NCBI RefSeq assembly: GCF_001889045.1 | Contig: NZ_CP018155.1 | Span: 496,001-560,000, forward strand | Source of the DNA: Tenacibaculum todarodis | GTDB taxonomy: Bacteria > Bacteroidota > Bacteroidia > Flavobacteriales > Flavobacteriaceae | Length of the DNA stretch: 64,000 nucleotides | Reading direction: 5' to 3' | Shown here: positions 10,888-59,547 of the stretch, piece by piece | How positions within the stretch are numbered: position 1 is the stretch's first letter | Layout of the letters: the number at the start of each line of letters is the position of its first letter | Position numbers and translations under genes: made by a program | Notes under the pieces: generated by a model | Databases searched by the model: none | Told to the model about the DNA's origin: nothing | The model's input: only the letters and a program-made list of their open reading frames with translations

Positions 10888-11691
10888 ATGTCTAAAGTAG
10901 TTTTAATAACAGGAGCTTCCTCCGGAATAGGAAAAGCAATAGCAATTTATTTATTAAGTAAAGGATTTACTGTTTACGGAACAAGTAGAAGTGAAGCCAA
11001 TGCAGCTAAATTTCCTTTTAACTTGGTTGCCTTAGATGTTACAAAGCCTGCAACTATTACAAGTGCTGTTGAAAAAGTGATTGCTAAAGAAGGAAGATTA
11101 GATGTTCTTATAAATAATGCGGGAAAAGGAATTACAGGTGCAATTGAAGACACACCAACAGAAGAAATGAAAACTAATTTTGATACTAATTTCTTTGGTC
11201 CAATTGAAGTTATGAAAGCTGTTTTACCACAAATGCGAAAGCAGAAATCGGGCTTAATTTTAAACGTAACATCAATTGCGGGTTATATGGGTTTGCCATT
11301 TCGCGGAATTTATTCGGCAAGTAAAGGTGCTTTGGAATTAATTACGGAAGCTACAAATATGGAAGTAAATCAGTTTGGAATTAACGTTGTAAACGTTGCT
11401 CCAGGAGATTTTGCAACCAATATTGCTTCAGGACGTTATCATACGCCTGTTTTTGAAAACTCTGCGTACAAAGAAAAATATGCAGAAAACTTAGCTTTAA
11501 TGGATTCTCATGTTTCTGGCGGAATGGATCCAATAGTAATGGCGAAAAAAGTATTACAGATTATAAATACTAAGAATCCGAAAGTACATTACAAAGTAGG
11601 CGGATTTATGGAAAAGTTCTCTATAGTTCTTAAAAGGATTTTACCAGATAAATGGTACCAAAAATTATTAATGAATCATTATAAATTGTAA
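10888..11691 (+). CDS. Short-chain dehydrogenase/reductase
   Basis: A 267-residue classical SDR. The NAD(P)-binding glycine motif is TGASSGIGKA, followed by NNAGKG, the catalytic Ser in LNVTSIAG and YSASKGA with the catalytic Tyr and Lys. The residue after the second strand (YGTSRSE, with Arg) favours NADP. The Rossmann fold spans nearly the whole chain and the C terminus may be a membrane-associating helix. Substrate unknown; many flavobacterial relatives are annotated only as SDR oxidoreductases. Confidence 0.9.
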   Translation: MSKVVLITGASSGIGKAIAIYLLSKGFTVYGTSRSEANAAKFPFNLVALDVTKPATITSAVEKVIAKEGRLDVLINNAGKGITGAIEDTPTEEMKTNFDTNFFGPIEVMKAVLPQMRKQKSGLILNVTSIAGYMGLPFRGIYSASKGALELITEATNMEVNQFGINVVNVAPGDFATNIASGRYHTPVFENSAYKEKYAENLALMDSHVSGGMDPIVMAKKVLQIINTKNPKVHYKVGGFMEKFSIVLKRILPDKWYQKLLMNHYKL

Positions 11692-11693
11692 AT

Positions 11694-11792
11694 TAGCCCC
11701 GCGTTAGGGATTGCAGCATTTGTTTGAGCTCTTTTGTGAAGAATGAACAAAAAGCGAGTGCGAAAAGCCCGACCTTTTTAGGTAACGCTCAG
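11694..11792 (-). repeat. Two-stem dispersed element, copy A
   Basis: Read on the minus strand: GAGCGTTACC, hairpin ACCT-AAAA-AGGT, CGGGCTTTTCGC, hairpin CTTTTTGT...ACAAAAG, then CTGCAATCCCTAACGC and GGGGCTAA. It fills the SDR-fsa gap. It is the only one of seven copies whose orientation opposes that of its upstream gene. Confidence 0.8.
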
Positions 11793-11823: not shown

Positions 11824-12477
11824 ATGAAATTTTTTATTGACACAGCAAATTTAGCCCAAATTGAAGAAGCGCAAGCAATGGGTATTTTAGATGGCGTAAC
11901 TACAAATCCGTCTTTAATGGCAAAAGAAGGAATTACCGGAGAAGCCAACATTATTAACCATTACAAAGCAATTTGTGAGTTGGTAGATGGAGATGTTTCT
12001 GCTGAGGTAATCTCTACAGATTTCGACGGAATGGTTAAAGAAGGTGAAGCTTTGGCTGCTTTAAACCCTCAGATTGTGGTAAAATTACCAATGATAAAAG
12101 ACGGTGTAAAAGCGTGTAAATATTTTTCTTCTAAAGGAATTAAAACAAACGTAACGTTAGTGTTTTCTGCGGGTCAAGCATTATTGGCAGCAAAAGCAGG
12201 AGCAACGTATGTGTCGCCATTTATTGGTCGTTTAGATGATATTTCTACAGATGGTTTAAACTTAATTGCAGAAATTCGTCATATTTATGATAATTATGGT
12301 TTCGAAACTGAAATTTTAGCAGCATCTGTGCGTCATACAATGCACATTATTGATTGTGCAAAATTAGGGTCAGACGTTATGACTGGGCCTTTAAGTGCCA
12401 TTGAAGGTTTACTAAGACATCCTTTAACAGATAGTGGTTTGGCTAAGTTTTTAGCAGATTATAAAAAAGGAAACTAG
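11824..12477 (+). CDS. fsa: Fructose-6-phosphate aldolase / small transaldolase
   Basis: A 217-residue TIM-barrel enzyme of the short transaldolase family (FSA/TalC). Motifs are FFIDTANLAQIEEA, GVTTNPSLMAKEG, the Schiff-base Lys in IVVKLPM, and LAASVRHTMHI. The length, about 215-220, is that of FSA or TalC rather than of the 315-residue TalB. Whether it acts as transaldolase in the pentose phosphate pathway or as fructose-6-phosphate aldolase cannot be settled from sequence. The TAG stop codon is the first three bases of a period-7 array. Confidence 0.9.
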   Translation: MKFFIDTANLAQIEEAQAMGILDGVTTNPSLMAKEGITGEANIINHYKAICELVDGDVSAEVISTDFDGMVKEGEALAALNPQIVVKLPMIKDGVKACKYFSSKGIKTNVTLVFSAGQALLAAKAGATYVSPFIGRLDDISTDGLNLIAEIRHIYDNYGFETEILAASVRHTMHIIDCAKLGSDVMTGPLSAIEGLLRHPLTDSGLAKFLADYKKGN

Positions 12478-12558: not shown

Positions 12559-12641
12559 AAGCTATTTCCTGCTTTCGCTACTCGCTTTTTTTACGAAAAT
12601 GCAAAAAAGAGCTCAAACAGACCGCTCAATCAGGGCTAAGC
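12559..12641 (+). repeat. Two-stem dispersed element, copy B (short form)
   Basis: Opens AAGCTATTTCCTGC, has the core CTTTCGCTACTCGC, a stem GCTTTTTT...AAAAAAGAGC and closes CAATCAGGGCTAAGC. It is downstream of fsa in the same orientation. Confidence 0.8.
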
Positions 12642-19777: not shown

Positions 19778-19813
19778 AAAGCTACTTTCTTAAATAGAGA
19801 GTAGCTTTTTTTT
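19778..19813 (+). terminator. Terminator of the rpmB-rpmG-DUF4295 operon
   Basis: AAAGCTACT pairs with AGTAGCTTT. The stem extends inward by TTCT/AGAG, one of these being a wobble pair, with a TAAAT loop, and a run of eight T follows. Confidence 0.9.
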
Positions 19814-19833
19814 ATATATTGCATTTTGTTATC

Positions 19834-19850
19834 CTGAGCGTAGTCGAAGG
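19834..19850 (+). repeat. TGAGCGNAGTCGAA short repeat
   Basis: CTGAGCGTAGTCGAAGG lies 4 nt before copy C of the two-stem element. Confidence 0.7.
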
Positions 19851-19853
19851 GTT

Positions 19854-19944
19854 GGGCGTTACCACGCAAAAAAAGCGTGGTCGGGCTTTTCGCTATATCT
19901 TTTTTCAGAAAAAGAAAAAAGGATGCCGCTACAATCCCTAACGC
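19854..19944 (+). repeat. Two-stem dispersed element, copy C (long form)
   Basis: GGGCGTTA, stem CCACGC-A7-GCGTGG, TCGGGCTTTTCGCTATAT, stem CTTTTTTC...GAAAAAAG, then GATGCCGCTACAATCCC and TAACGC. It is downstream of the ribosomal cluster in the same orientation, after its terminator. Confidence 0.85.
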
Positions 19945-20025
19945 AGGCCTCTTTATAATGACAAGATGTCAAGTTTAACTCTTGGCATAATTTTTAAGGT
20001 ATAAAAAAGTATACAAACCAAACAG

Positions 20026-25533: not shown

Positions 25534-26193
25534 TTACACTATAACGCCATCTTTCATTGTCAAAGTTCTGTCTGCCATTGCAGCAAGTTCTTTGTTATGC
25601 GTAACAAGAACAAAGGTTTGTCCTAATTTATCACGCAATTCAAAAAATAGTTTGTGTAGGTTTTCTGCGGAAGTAGAATCTAGATTTCCAGAAGGTTCAT
25701 CGGCAAAAATTACTGAAGGCTCATTAATTAATGCTCTTGCAACTGCAACGCGTTGTTGTTCTCCTCCAGAAAGTTGATTAGGTTTGTGATTTTCTCGATG
25801 CGATAAACCTAAGAATTCTAATAACTCTTTAGCTCTTTTTTCTGTTGCTGCTTTTGGTTTATTGCCAATAAATGCAGGAATACAAACGTTTTCTAAGGCC
25901 GTAAATTCTGGTAATAACTGATGAAATTGAAATATAAAACCAATGTGTTTATTTCTGAATTTAGATATCTCTTTATCGGATAAATCTTTAATTGATATTC
26001 CGTCTACAAAGAGTTGAAATTCTTCTTCTTTCAGCGGTTTATCTAAAGTTCCTAAAATTTGTAAGAGTGTTGTTTTACCTGCTCCAGATGGACCAACAAT
26101 GGCAACTATTTCGCCTTTTTTAATATGAAGGTTTACGCCTTTTAAAACTTCGACTTCTCCGTAATATTTATGAATATTTTTTGCTACAATCAT
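25534..26193 (-). CDS. ABC transporter ATPase, LolD/MacB-like
   Basis: A 219-residue ATPase with Walker [10 protein letters not shown], the signature [15 protein letters not shown], Walker [14 protein letters not shown] and a His switch VTHNKELA. Spacing and the SGGEQQR signature place it in the LolD/MacB/FtsE group that works with MacB-type permeases on lipoproteins or efflux. No permease gene is adjacent, so the partner lies elsewhere. First gene of an operon with CPBP and TIGR02757. Confidence 0.9.
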
Positions 26194-26237
26194 GCTTTAA
26201 TTTCAATAAAACGAATGTACTAAGAATTATCGGTTTT

Positions 26238-26327
26238 GCGTGAGGGATTGAAGTAGAAATCCTTTTGTGAAGAATGAACAAAAGATTGTAACGGAAAGCC
26301 CGACCACGCCTAAGCGTGGGCACGCCC
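26238..26327 (-). repeat. Two-stem dispersed element, copy D (long form)
   Basis: On the minus strand: GGGCGTG, stem CCACGC-TTAG-GCGTGG, TCGGGCTTTCCG, stem CTTTTGT...ACAAAAG, CTTCAATCCCTCACGC. Its first base is the last base of the DUF5916 gene's TAG stop codon. It shares the 13-nt loop GTTCATTCTTCAC with copy A. Confidence 0.85.
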
Positions 26328-30339: not shown

Positions 30340-30432
30340 AGCTATTTCCTGCTCGGAGTTTATCTTGAGCGAAGACGAAAGGTTATATCTTTTGCATAAA
30401 AAGCAAAAAGATGTCACTTCAATCAGGGCTAA
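30340..30432 (+). repeat. Two-stem dispersed element, copy E (short form with insert)
   Basis: GCTATTTCCTGC, then an extra segment containing TTGAGCGAAGACGAAAGG, then TTATATCTTTTGC, stem CTTTTGC...GCAAAA, GATGTCACTTCAATCAGG and GCTAA. Downstream of sucC in its orientation. Confidence 0.8.
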
Positions 30433-30491: not shown

Positions 30492-30624
30492 GCTAACGTT
30501 GTTGTGTTATGGAAAGTTGCGTTTAAAGTGAACGGCTATTTTCCGCAGGAAAATTGATGTTCACAAAAAAGCAACTACTTTTGGTTAGGATAAAAATAAG
30601 CAATTTTTTATACACGGTGTTAGC
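30492..30624 (+). repeat. attC-like hairpin, left end of LysR/LysE cassette
   Basis: Nested inverted repeats: GCTAAC (30492-30497) with GTTAGC (30619-30624); GTGT...ACAC just inside; AGTTGC (30515-30520) with GCAACT (30571-30576); GTGAAC (30528-30533) with GTTCAC (30559-30564); ATTTTCC (30538-30544) with GGAAAAT (30548-30554). The whole 133 nt could fold as one bulged hairpin, the architecture of an integron attC site, but the outer words only approximate the attC consensus. Together with the terminator and copy E it accounts for most of the 373-bp gap after sucC. Confidence 0.65.
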
Positions 30625-57577: not shown

Positions 57578-57648
57578 AAGCTGTTTCCCGCTTTTCGTTA
57601 TATCTTTTGCAAAAAAGCAAAAGGATGTCACTACAATCGGGGCTAAGC
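57578..57648 (+). repeat. Two-stem dispersed element, copy F (short form)
   Basis: AAGCTGTTTCCCGC, TTTTCGTTATAT, perfect stem CTTTTGC-A6-GCAAAAG, GATGTCACTACAATCG and GGGCTAAGC. It lies between the response regulator and its terminator, so it is probably transcribed as 3' UTR. Confidence 0.85.
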
Positions 57649-59486: not shown

Positions 59487-59547
59487 ATGCTGACTTTTGT
59501 GAGAATTTATTAACTAAAAGGGTTATAAAAAAGCAATAGCAAGTACG

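Follow-up and report, generated by a model that had tools for sequence, protein, structure and literature searches.

Several described systems bear on the repeat analyzed here. ERIC and MITE repeats are non-coding, vary in presence among relatives at a given site, and carry other repeats in their loops; attC is a recombination site formed by a folded bottom strand, with a consensus R box. The GTAG and CGTC families of REP elements have been described together with RAYT, in the available sections of one paper (PMC3733652). Closest of all is Flavo-1, a Bacteroidetes motif from a 2010 computational screen (Weinberg et al.), the accessible part of which rates it as probably RNA and not cis-regulatory (PMC2864571); according to the excerpted text of a 2022 review, it is among the most abundant small-RNA families (PMC9029176). 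Within the portions of the literature searched, we found no description of Flavo-1 as a mobile repeat, and none of its mosaic anatomy, site turnover or orientation bias.

The window analyzed here is a 64,000-nucleotide stretch of Tenacibaculum todarodis DNA, in which a first-pass annotation had proposed seven copies of a two-stem element. An RF01705 match covers each of the seven places, and the copies are Flavo-1 (Rfam RF01705, a family filed as probable RNA); the motif itself, named in 2010, is not new, and the first-pass annotation had missed the catalogued family. Four of the seven exceed the RF01705 gathering score (42 bits) and three, from a looser-threshold scan, fall under it; the 30340 and 11694 copies were accepted because, by eye, their arms resemble those of other copies in the own genome. 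Three copies (11694, 26238 and 59548) are reversed relative to the other four (Table 1).

Table 1. Flavo-1 copies in the window, with parts of the copy beside ftsY
Position	Strand	Feature	Basis
11691..11778	+	Flavo-1 copy, long outer type B, inner module II (GAGCTC/GCGAGT)	RF01705 24.8 bits, E 0.7, under cut-off
12561..12641	-	Flavo-1 copy, short outer type A, inner module II	RF01705 32.2 bits, E 0.0064, under cut-off
19856..19944	-	Flavo-1 copy, full three-way junction, outer type B, inner module I	RF01705 57.6 bits at 19875-19953
19856..19861		Outer stem arm GCGTTA, partner TAACGC at 19939-19944	Sequence; pair unpaired in RF01705 model
19862..19880		Second hairpin CCACGC..GCGTGG, long form	Sequence and predicted folds
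19900..19921		Apical hairpin TTTTTTC..GAAAAAAG	Sequence
26233..26309	+	Flavo-1 copy, outer type B, inner module I	RF01705 55.9 bits
30341..30434	-	Flavo-1 copy, outer type A, inner module I	RF01705 27.7 bits, E 0.11, under cut-off
57580..57648	-	Flavo-1 copy, outer type A, inner module I	RF01705 67.6 bits
59534..59687	+	Flavo-1 copy, outer type B, inner module I	RF01705 47.9 bits

The stem pairs quoted in the first-pass annotation are all present in the sequence, and CCACGC/GCGTGG and ACCT/AGGT prove to form the second hairpin in a three-way junction that has GCGTTA/TAACGC as its closing stem. The linker words that it took to be shared fared less well: both are exact at 19854, but no other copy has both exactly, and they are not common to all copies, since 11694 and 12559 have a different inner module (GAGCTC..GCGAGT) there. 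Allowing up to three mismatches, GGGCTTTTCGCTATATC matches three times in the window (0.11 expected) and GATGCCGCTACAATC five times (0.59 expected), counts that make chance unlikely; four of the five GATGCCGCTACAATC matches are in the named copies and one, at 12312, is outside them. As judged from the Pfam families of its neighbors, the first copy lies immediately 3′ of a short-chain dehydrogenase stop codon and is followed by a transaldolase-family gene; the third is flanked by the L28–L33–DUF4295 genes on one side and ftsY on the other. The copy at 26233 carries, by alignment, a longer-loop subtype of inner module I (GGAAATC/GATTGTA) like the Rfam consensus. One arm of the copy at 30341 contains a REP-like TTATCTTGAGCGAAGACGAAAGG segment, with a similar segment at two congener loci (L036, L041); the copy at 57580 has a stop codon on one side and a terminator-like hairpin with a T-run on the other, and the apical loop of the copy at 59534 holds another nested palindrome. 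A distinct REP-like repeat, TGTCATTCCTGCGTAGGCAGGAATCTAT, occurs three times in the window (2815, 10789 and 59461), and palindromes resembling it are nested in Flavo-1 apical loops elsewhere in the genome (e.g. at 2667516, 2215127 and 1207800).

Flavo-1 is a mosaic of two outer types, two inner modules and exchangeable apical hairpins. On the Rfam strand, outer type A reads AGCCCxGATT..AAAGCyGGAAATAGCT, and outer type B reads GCGTTAxxGATTG..AAAGCyyGACC, continuing into a second hairpin and then TAACGCCCAAA. The inner modules are I (..CATCC / GATATA..) and II (..GAGCTC / GCGAGT..), and the apical hairpins vary, at times enclosing other palindromes. The combinations among 96 own-genome copies (the best 95 of the genome search plus the 11694 copy) are A-I in 26, A-II in 19, B-I in 48 and B-II in one, with two unclassified. 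Sequence and inner stem are the same as in the Rfam family, whereas the RF01705 model omits the closing stem GCGTTA/TAACGC and the long-form second hairpin, and scores 18 of the 20 listed module II copies below 42 bits. Four further long-form module II copies, outside the 96-copy set and unlisted by the Rfam search, were recovered by pattern in ~3-kb loci around other copies (362073, 757762, 1166951 and 1761130 on contig C1 of the own genome); RF01705 thus misses a module II subtype, and with these finds the true own-genome copy number must be higher.

Even so, the genome (3.02 Mb, one contig) has 100 RF01705 places at E ≤10, of which 74 are over the family cut-off, and at least 100 Flavo-1 copies were located; that many mosaic copies make the filing as a small-RNA gene unfitting. 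Two copies, at 25726 and 3015281, are identical including the displayed 45-nt flanks, which points either to duplication of a segment or to overlap in the assembly near the contig ends. Congeners have 3 (G175), 6 (G106), 38, 48, 51, 59, 64 and 79 matches at E ≤0.01. The impression that similar strings occur in other Flavobacteriaceae, the family of T. todarodis, was correct: 100 of the 149 genomes sampled at that level have a Flavo-1 match, as do 43 of 296 genomes of a phylum sample at E ≤1e-4. In viral sequence, one pattern run against IMG/VR picked out 42 stretches, including 10 elements with both arms; on three viral contigs (L275, L277 and L287), Flavo-1 arms surround long apical inserts, which resemble one another and include a GCGAAGC or related GCGNAGC hairpin.

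Flavo-1 both resembles and differs from the other known systems. Like ERIC and MITE repeats it is non-coding, present or absent at given sites among relatives, and hosts nested repeats in its loops; unlike them, its inner modules are interchangeable. The likeness to integron attC lies in one folding strand, an imperfect stem with unpaired bases and a variable apex, but Flavo-1 is dispersed rather than arrayed, and judged by the R-box consensus the long-form ends, GTTA..TAAC, are the reverse of R boxes. Membership of attC was rejected for this reversed box order; in the short form, no R boxes were seen by eye. As a separate observation, the window contains, by the same consensus, an attC-like stretch at 30493-30624 (GCTAACG ... 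GTGTTAGC), many relatives of which lie on one strand at 1549-1580 kb of contig C1 in the congener G187; that region looks like an integron cassette array. With REP/BIME elements, as characterized in the sections available, Flavo-1 shares palindromy, extragenic location, tens of copies and mosaic groupings (PMC3733652). It differs in being longer, in its mismatched inner stem, in having no fixed GTAG/CGTC foot that we could see, and in being abundant without RAYT.

We consider it somewhat more probable than the alternatives taken together, at roughly 55%, that Flavo-1 is a non-coding, non-autonomous interspersed repeat of the REP/ERIC/MITE kind, one strand of which is kept foldable. It would multiply within genomes and be retained mainly between genes, often just 3′ of stop codons; its foldable strand would comprise the outer stem, a purine-rich mismatched inner stem and the variable apical hairpin, joined in the long form by the second hairpin. 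A mosaic, spreading repeat whose single-strand fold is conserved explains the nature of Flavo-1 better than does the catalogued RNA motif, as set out below. The main competing explanation is that Flavo-1 is a functional RNA, acting as a 3′ UTR, a 5′ UTR or an antisense transcript, whose usefulness drives its spread and in which selection on the RNA keeps the pairing; we regard this as unlikely, yet serious enough to be weighed against each line of evidence.

Six window sites could be compared by eye with eight complete congeners (30340 was excluded). The 19854 site was occupied in 8/8; the 12559 site was occupied in four and empty in four; the 11694 site was occupied in two, empty in three and split by ~1.2 kb of other sequence in three; and the 26238, 57578 and 59548 sites were each empty in all seven testable congeners. 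Three sites are thus occupied only in the own genome, two are variable and one is occupied in every tested congener, so that five of six vary, over up to nine genomes, between empty and occupied orthologous states as for a MITE/ERIC-like repeat. Empty sites alone do not tell gain from loss. The occupants of the 12559 site agree in outer type and differ in inner module, and so do those of the 11694 site. Comparable behavior was seen in 36 congener copies, comprising all six of G106 and 30 loci from seven genomes chosen with a bias to the best scores, such that high scorers are over-represented: 13 have both flanks as in an own copy (11 different own sites, two matched twice), and among these the outer type is kept in 12 (one, L317, by eye) and changed in one, and the inner module differs in four. 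Together, the occupancy and shared-flank comparisons indicate turnover, persistence and in-place module change. An outer inverted stem is present, and the flanks of relatives are too diverged for fixing ends or a target duplication. The most persistent copy is that between DUF4295 and ftsY; in the 30 best-scoring loci from 58 genus genomes (own included, read by eye), it is present in 23, decayed-looking in 2 and absent in 5. That retention would be expected of a functional RNA, and the 13 shared-site congener copies also fit a retained cis function.

Pairing was assessed in 247 distinct elements (88 own) from the own genome, congeners, named genomes and viral contigs; only elements fitting the arm patterns were counted and strongly altered copies excluded, which biases the set toward paired cells. 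In module I, two inner pairs are Watson-Crick in 413/428 cells, against a mean of 226.7 and a maximum of 260 over 2000 shuffles with relatedness not removed; in type B, two outer pairs are Watson-Crick in 242/246 cells (shuffle mean 145.3, maximum 165, relatedness likewise not removed). Inner and outer pairs each show four common pair states, and in the own genome the outer states combine freely with the inner ones. Pair-preserving double changes also occur at congener-shared sites (own 117156 versus L322, 1388410 versus L313, and 1256958 versus L347). The proposal that pairing is preserved despite sequence change therefore stands, and a structure so kept argues that Flavo-1 is not debris. Wobble pairs are asymmetric on the Rfam strand, with 36 G.T against 10 A.C (p 1.6e-4), or 15 against 2 when the apical hairpin is left out (p 0.002), and tRNA stems used as a control gave 16 against 0. 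The G.T excess indicates that one strand folds and argues against a two-strand cruciform; it does not tell RNA from DNA. Strong covariation, including the compensatory changes at shared sites, and a wobble bias of the tRNA kind are accordingly counted in favor of a functional RNA, as is the probable-RNA rating in the accessible part of the 2010 screen (PMC2864571).

Gene context and replication orientation weigh differently. Greedy ORF calls with short genes dropped placed 94 of the 96 copies (one within an ORF call and one flankless were excluded) in 57 tandem, 24 convergent and 13 divergent gaps, the 19854 copy being tallied as divergent because the 50-aa DUF4295 gene was dropped. Flavo-1 is intergenic and often right behind stop codons: in tandem gaps it lies closer to the upstream 3′ end in 44/57 and to the next start in 12/57, at median distances of 32 and 94 nt. 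Although the position behind stop codons suits an RNA of the 3′ UTR, the wobble-marked fold strand is opposite to the tandem genes in 37/57 and the same in 20/57, and for that reason the 3′ UTR RNA suggested by the first-pass annotation is disfavored. The fold strand follows the fork instead. Using replichores from sampled GC skew, picked by best contrast, it runs against the fork in 67:29 copies of the own genome (63:33 with 20 evenly spaced 20-kb skew blocks), and in 18:12, 13:10 and 27:9 copies of congeners G149, G168 and G187, respectively (together 58:31, p 0.0055). Correlations of skew with orientation over all splits were –0.93 in the own genome (G000), –0.94 in G187, –0.71 in G149 and –0.23 in G168, and the opposition to the fork is clear in two of the four genomes. 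With replichores drawn from ORF direction, the own genome gave 63:33, and the other three genomes together 44 against and 45 with the fork, i.e. no bias. Splitting the own-genome copies by gap type yields 39:18 in tandem gaps, 6:7 in divergent gaps and 20:4 in convergent ones, in which gene direction cancels out; the fold strand opposes genes that follow the fork 28:9, and genes that run against the fork 9:11. Both splits indicate that orientation tracks the fork more than the gene.

TAnnTTTG is the consensus promoter, and within ~50 nt upstream it occurs at 4/96 copies for the fold strand and 3/96 for the other strand, which is no enrichment for this promoter type and counts against a functional RNA. 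As side observations, the ftsY-side copy directly follows a TAnnTTTG promoter-like box in many congeners (window 19780-19856 and orthologues), and in G168 and G187 the copy on the transaldolase side is placed likewise. In F. psychrophilum, the consulted part of a transcript survey has several 5′ transcribed regions overlapping Flavo-1 matches, but those matches are sense or antisense alike and many lie outside transcribed regions (PMC9723704).

Predicted folding energies were used to compare RNA with single-stranded DNA. With DNA parameters the covarying pairs favor the Rfam strand in 63/67 own and 91/101 outside copies, and with RNA parameters in 31/67 and 29/101, the other strand being favored in 72/101 outside copies, contrary to what a functional RNA would predict. 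On the fold strand, DNA parameters exceed RNA parameters in 40/67 own (not significant) and 74/101 outside copies. The tRNA control was similar, its sense strand being favored in 17/23 with DNA and 15/23 with RNA parameters, and the effect weakens at 15 °C, where the DNA fold is rarely predicted to be dominant; this test therefore carries little weight. At the apex, tandem GA with a GNA triloop occurs in 32/247 elements and GCGNAGC in 15, against 0.06 (mean) and 0.3, respectively, in base shuffles, and GNA loops form very stable DNA mini-hairpins, according to the available text of one study (PMC4686876). RNA-type tetraloops, a point in favor of RNA, number 15 against 5 in shuffles. For the folded form we lean, at low weight, toward DNA over RNA.

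Insofar as Flavo-1 is an interspersed repeat, its folded form may be single-stranded DNA that is exposed or incorporated at the replication fork. A trans-acting enzyme, or host replication together with recombination, would copy the folded strands, which might arrive both at new sites and in old copies; a fold strand running against fork movement fits incorporation as lagging-strand DNA. In its fullest form, Flavo-1 would be a mosaic single-stranded DNA element, and not primarily RNA, whose folded strands are incorporated at the fork with nascent lagging-strand polarity, seeding new copies and overwriting inner modules in place. We offer this specific mechanism tentatively and think it rather doubtful as a whole.

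An obvious candidate for a mover is the Y1/RAYT transposase, which would make Flavo-1 a REP element whose copies are moved in trans. The first-pass annotation had raised a distant Y1 transposase, and the REP-like part of that suggestion survives, as Flavo-1 is high in copy number, intergenic, and gained or lost at sites. A search for the gene did reveal one intact RAYT in the own genome, at 216-217 kb, preceded by its own palindrome, which is unlike Flavo-1; a Flavo-1 copy lies 59 nt downstream of this ORF. The same region (L034 3020-4349) has two tandem RAYT-like ORFs, of which the second is the intact one; both are preceded by this palindrome, and the first is truncated immediately ahead of one palindrome copy. 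Abundance of the REP kind, the proximity of this one copy, and the co-occurrence of Flavo-1 with Y1 speak for such a mover: among 149 family genomes, 48 have both, 52 Flavo-1 only, 11 Y1 only and 38 neither (Fisher p 0.004, ignoring kinship and genome size). Atypical structures flanking Bacteroidetes subclass 2.6 RAYTs, reported in the accessible part of one survey (PMC6006769), point the same way. However, Y1 (PF01797) is found in 59/149 family genomes and is absent from 14 of the 31 with at least 12 Flavo-1 matches, 13 of these 14 also being without the RAYT model NF047646, and congener G168 combines 59 Flavo-1 matches with no RAYT match. Nor, within the genomes that have Flavo-1, are counts higher in those with Y1, the medians among the matches listed being 6 with Y1 and 5.5 without. 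No fixed foot with a terminal GTAG or CGTC tag was seen by eye in the 96 copies; the GTAG-like stretch that Flavo-1 does contain, GATTGNAG, is internal and variable. We therefore rejected Y1/RAYT as a general mover; it seems not to be required for Flavo-1 abundance, and we judge movement by it improbable. The Y1 and RAYT searches in family genomes and congeners yielded no mover, which may have been lost after Flavo-1 spread.

Alternatively, mutation itself could keep the pairing, if one arm is copied onto the other when replication switches templates, so that compensatory changes arise with no need for selection. Paired double changes in place, as found at the shared sites, are expected of such a process, and the free assortment of outer and inner pair states also agrees with it. 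In the copies read, however, the GA-rich mismatched internal loops remain imperfect and have not been corrected to a perfect palindrome, and whole inner modules switch type at fixed sites, so that we hold this explanation to be highly improbable.

Finally, that the copies are decaying insertion-sequence remnants is barely credible, in that dispersal and a few decayed-looking copies (L055, L058) are offset by intact stems in the pattern-matched elements, by phage and plasmid collections with no match to one 121-base Flavo-1 query, and by left arms without a near right arm having, in the loci examined, no matching arm seen up to 5 kb away. In that arm-distance check, many left arms had an ordinary near right arm outside the pattern, and one distant right arm (L217) had a non-matching outer part. 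No version with a gene between Flavo-1 arms was seen in the loci examined, nor, with arms up to 5 kb apart, any of the full-length insertion-sequence relatives whose existence would have spoken against a selected structure.

With its orientation against the fork and its modules changing in place, Flavo-1 offers a way to separate the RNA and DNA readings by experiment. If Flavo-1 is mainly a spreading DNA element, small-RNA counts in Bacteroidota are inflated, and a mobile repeat is common in the family (100/149 genomes). Should incorporation of folded strands at the fork be correct as well, it would mean RAYT-independent spread and concerted evolution of palindromic repeats across Bacteroidota.
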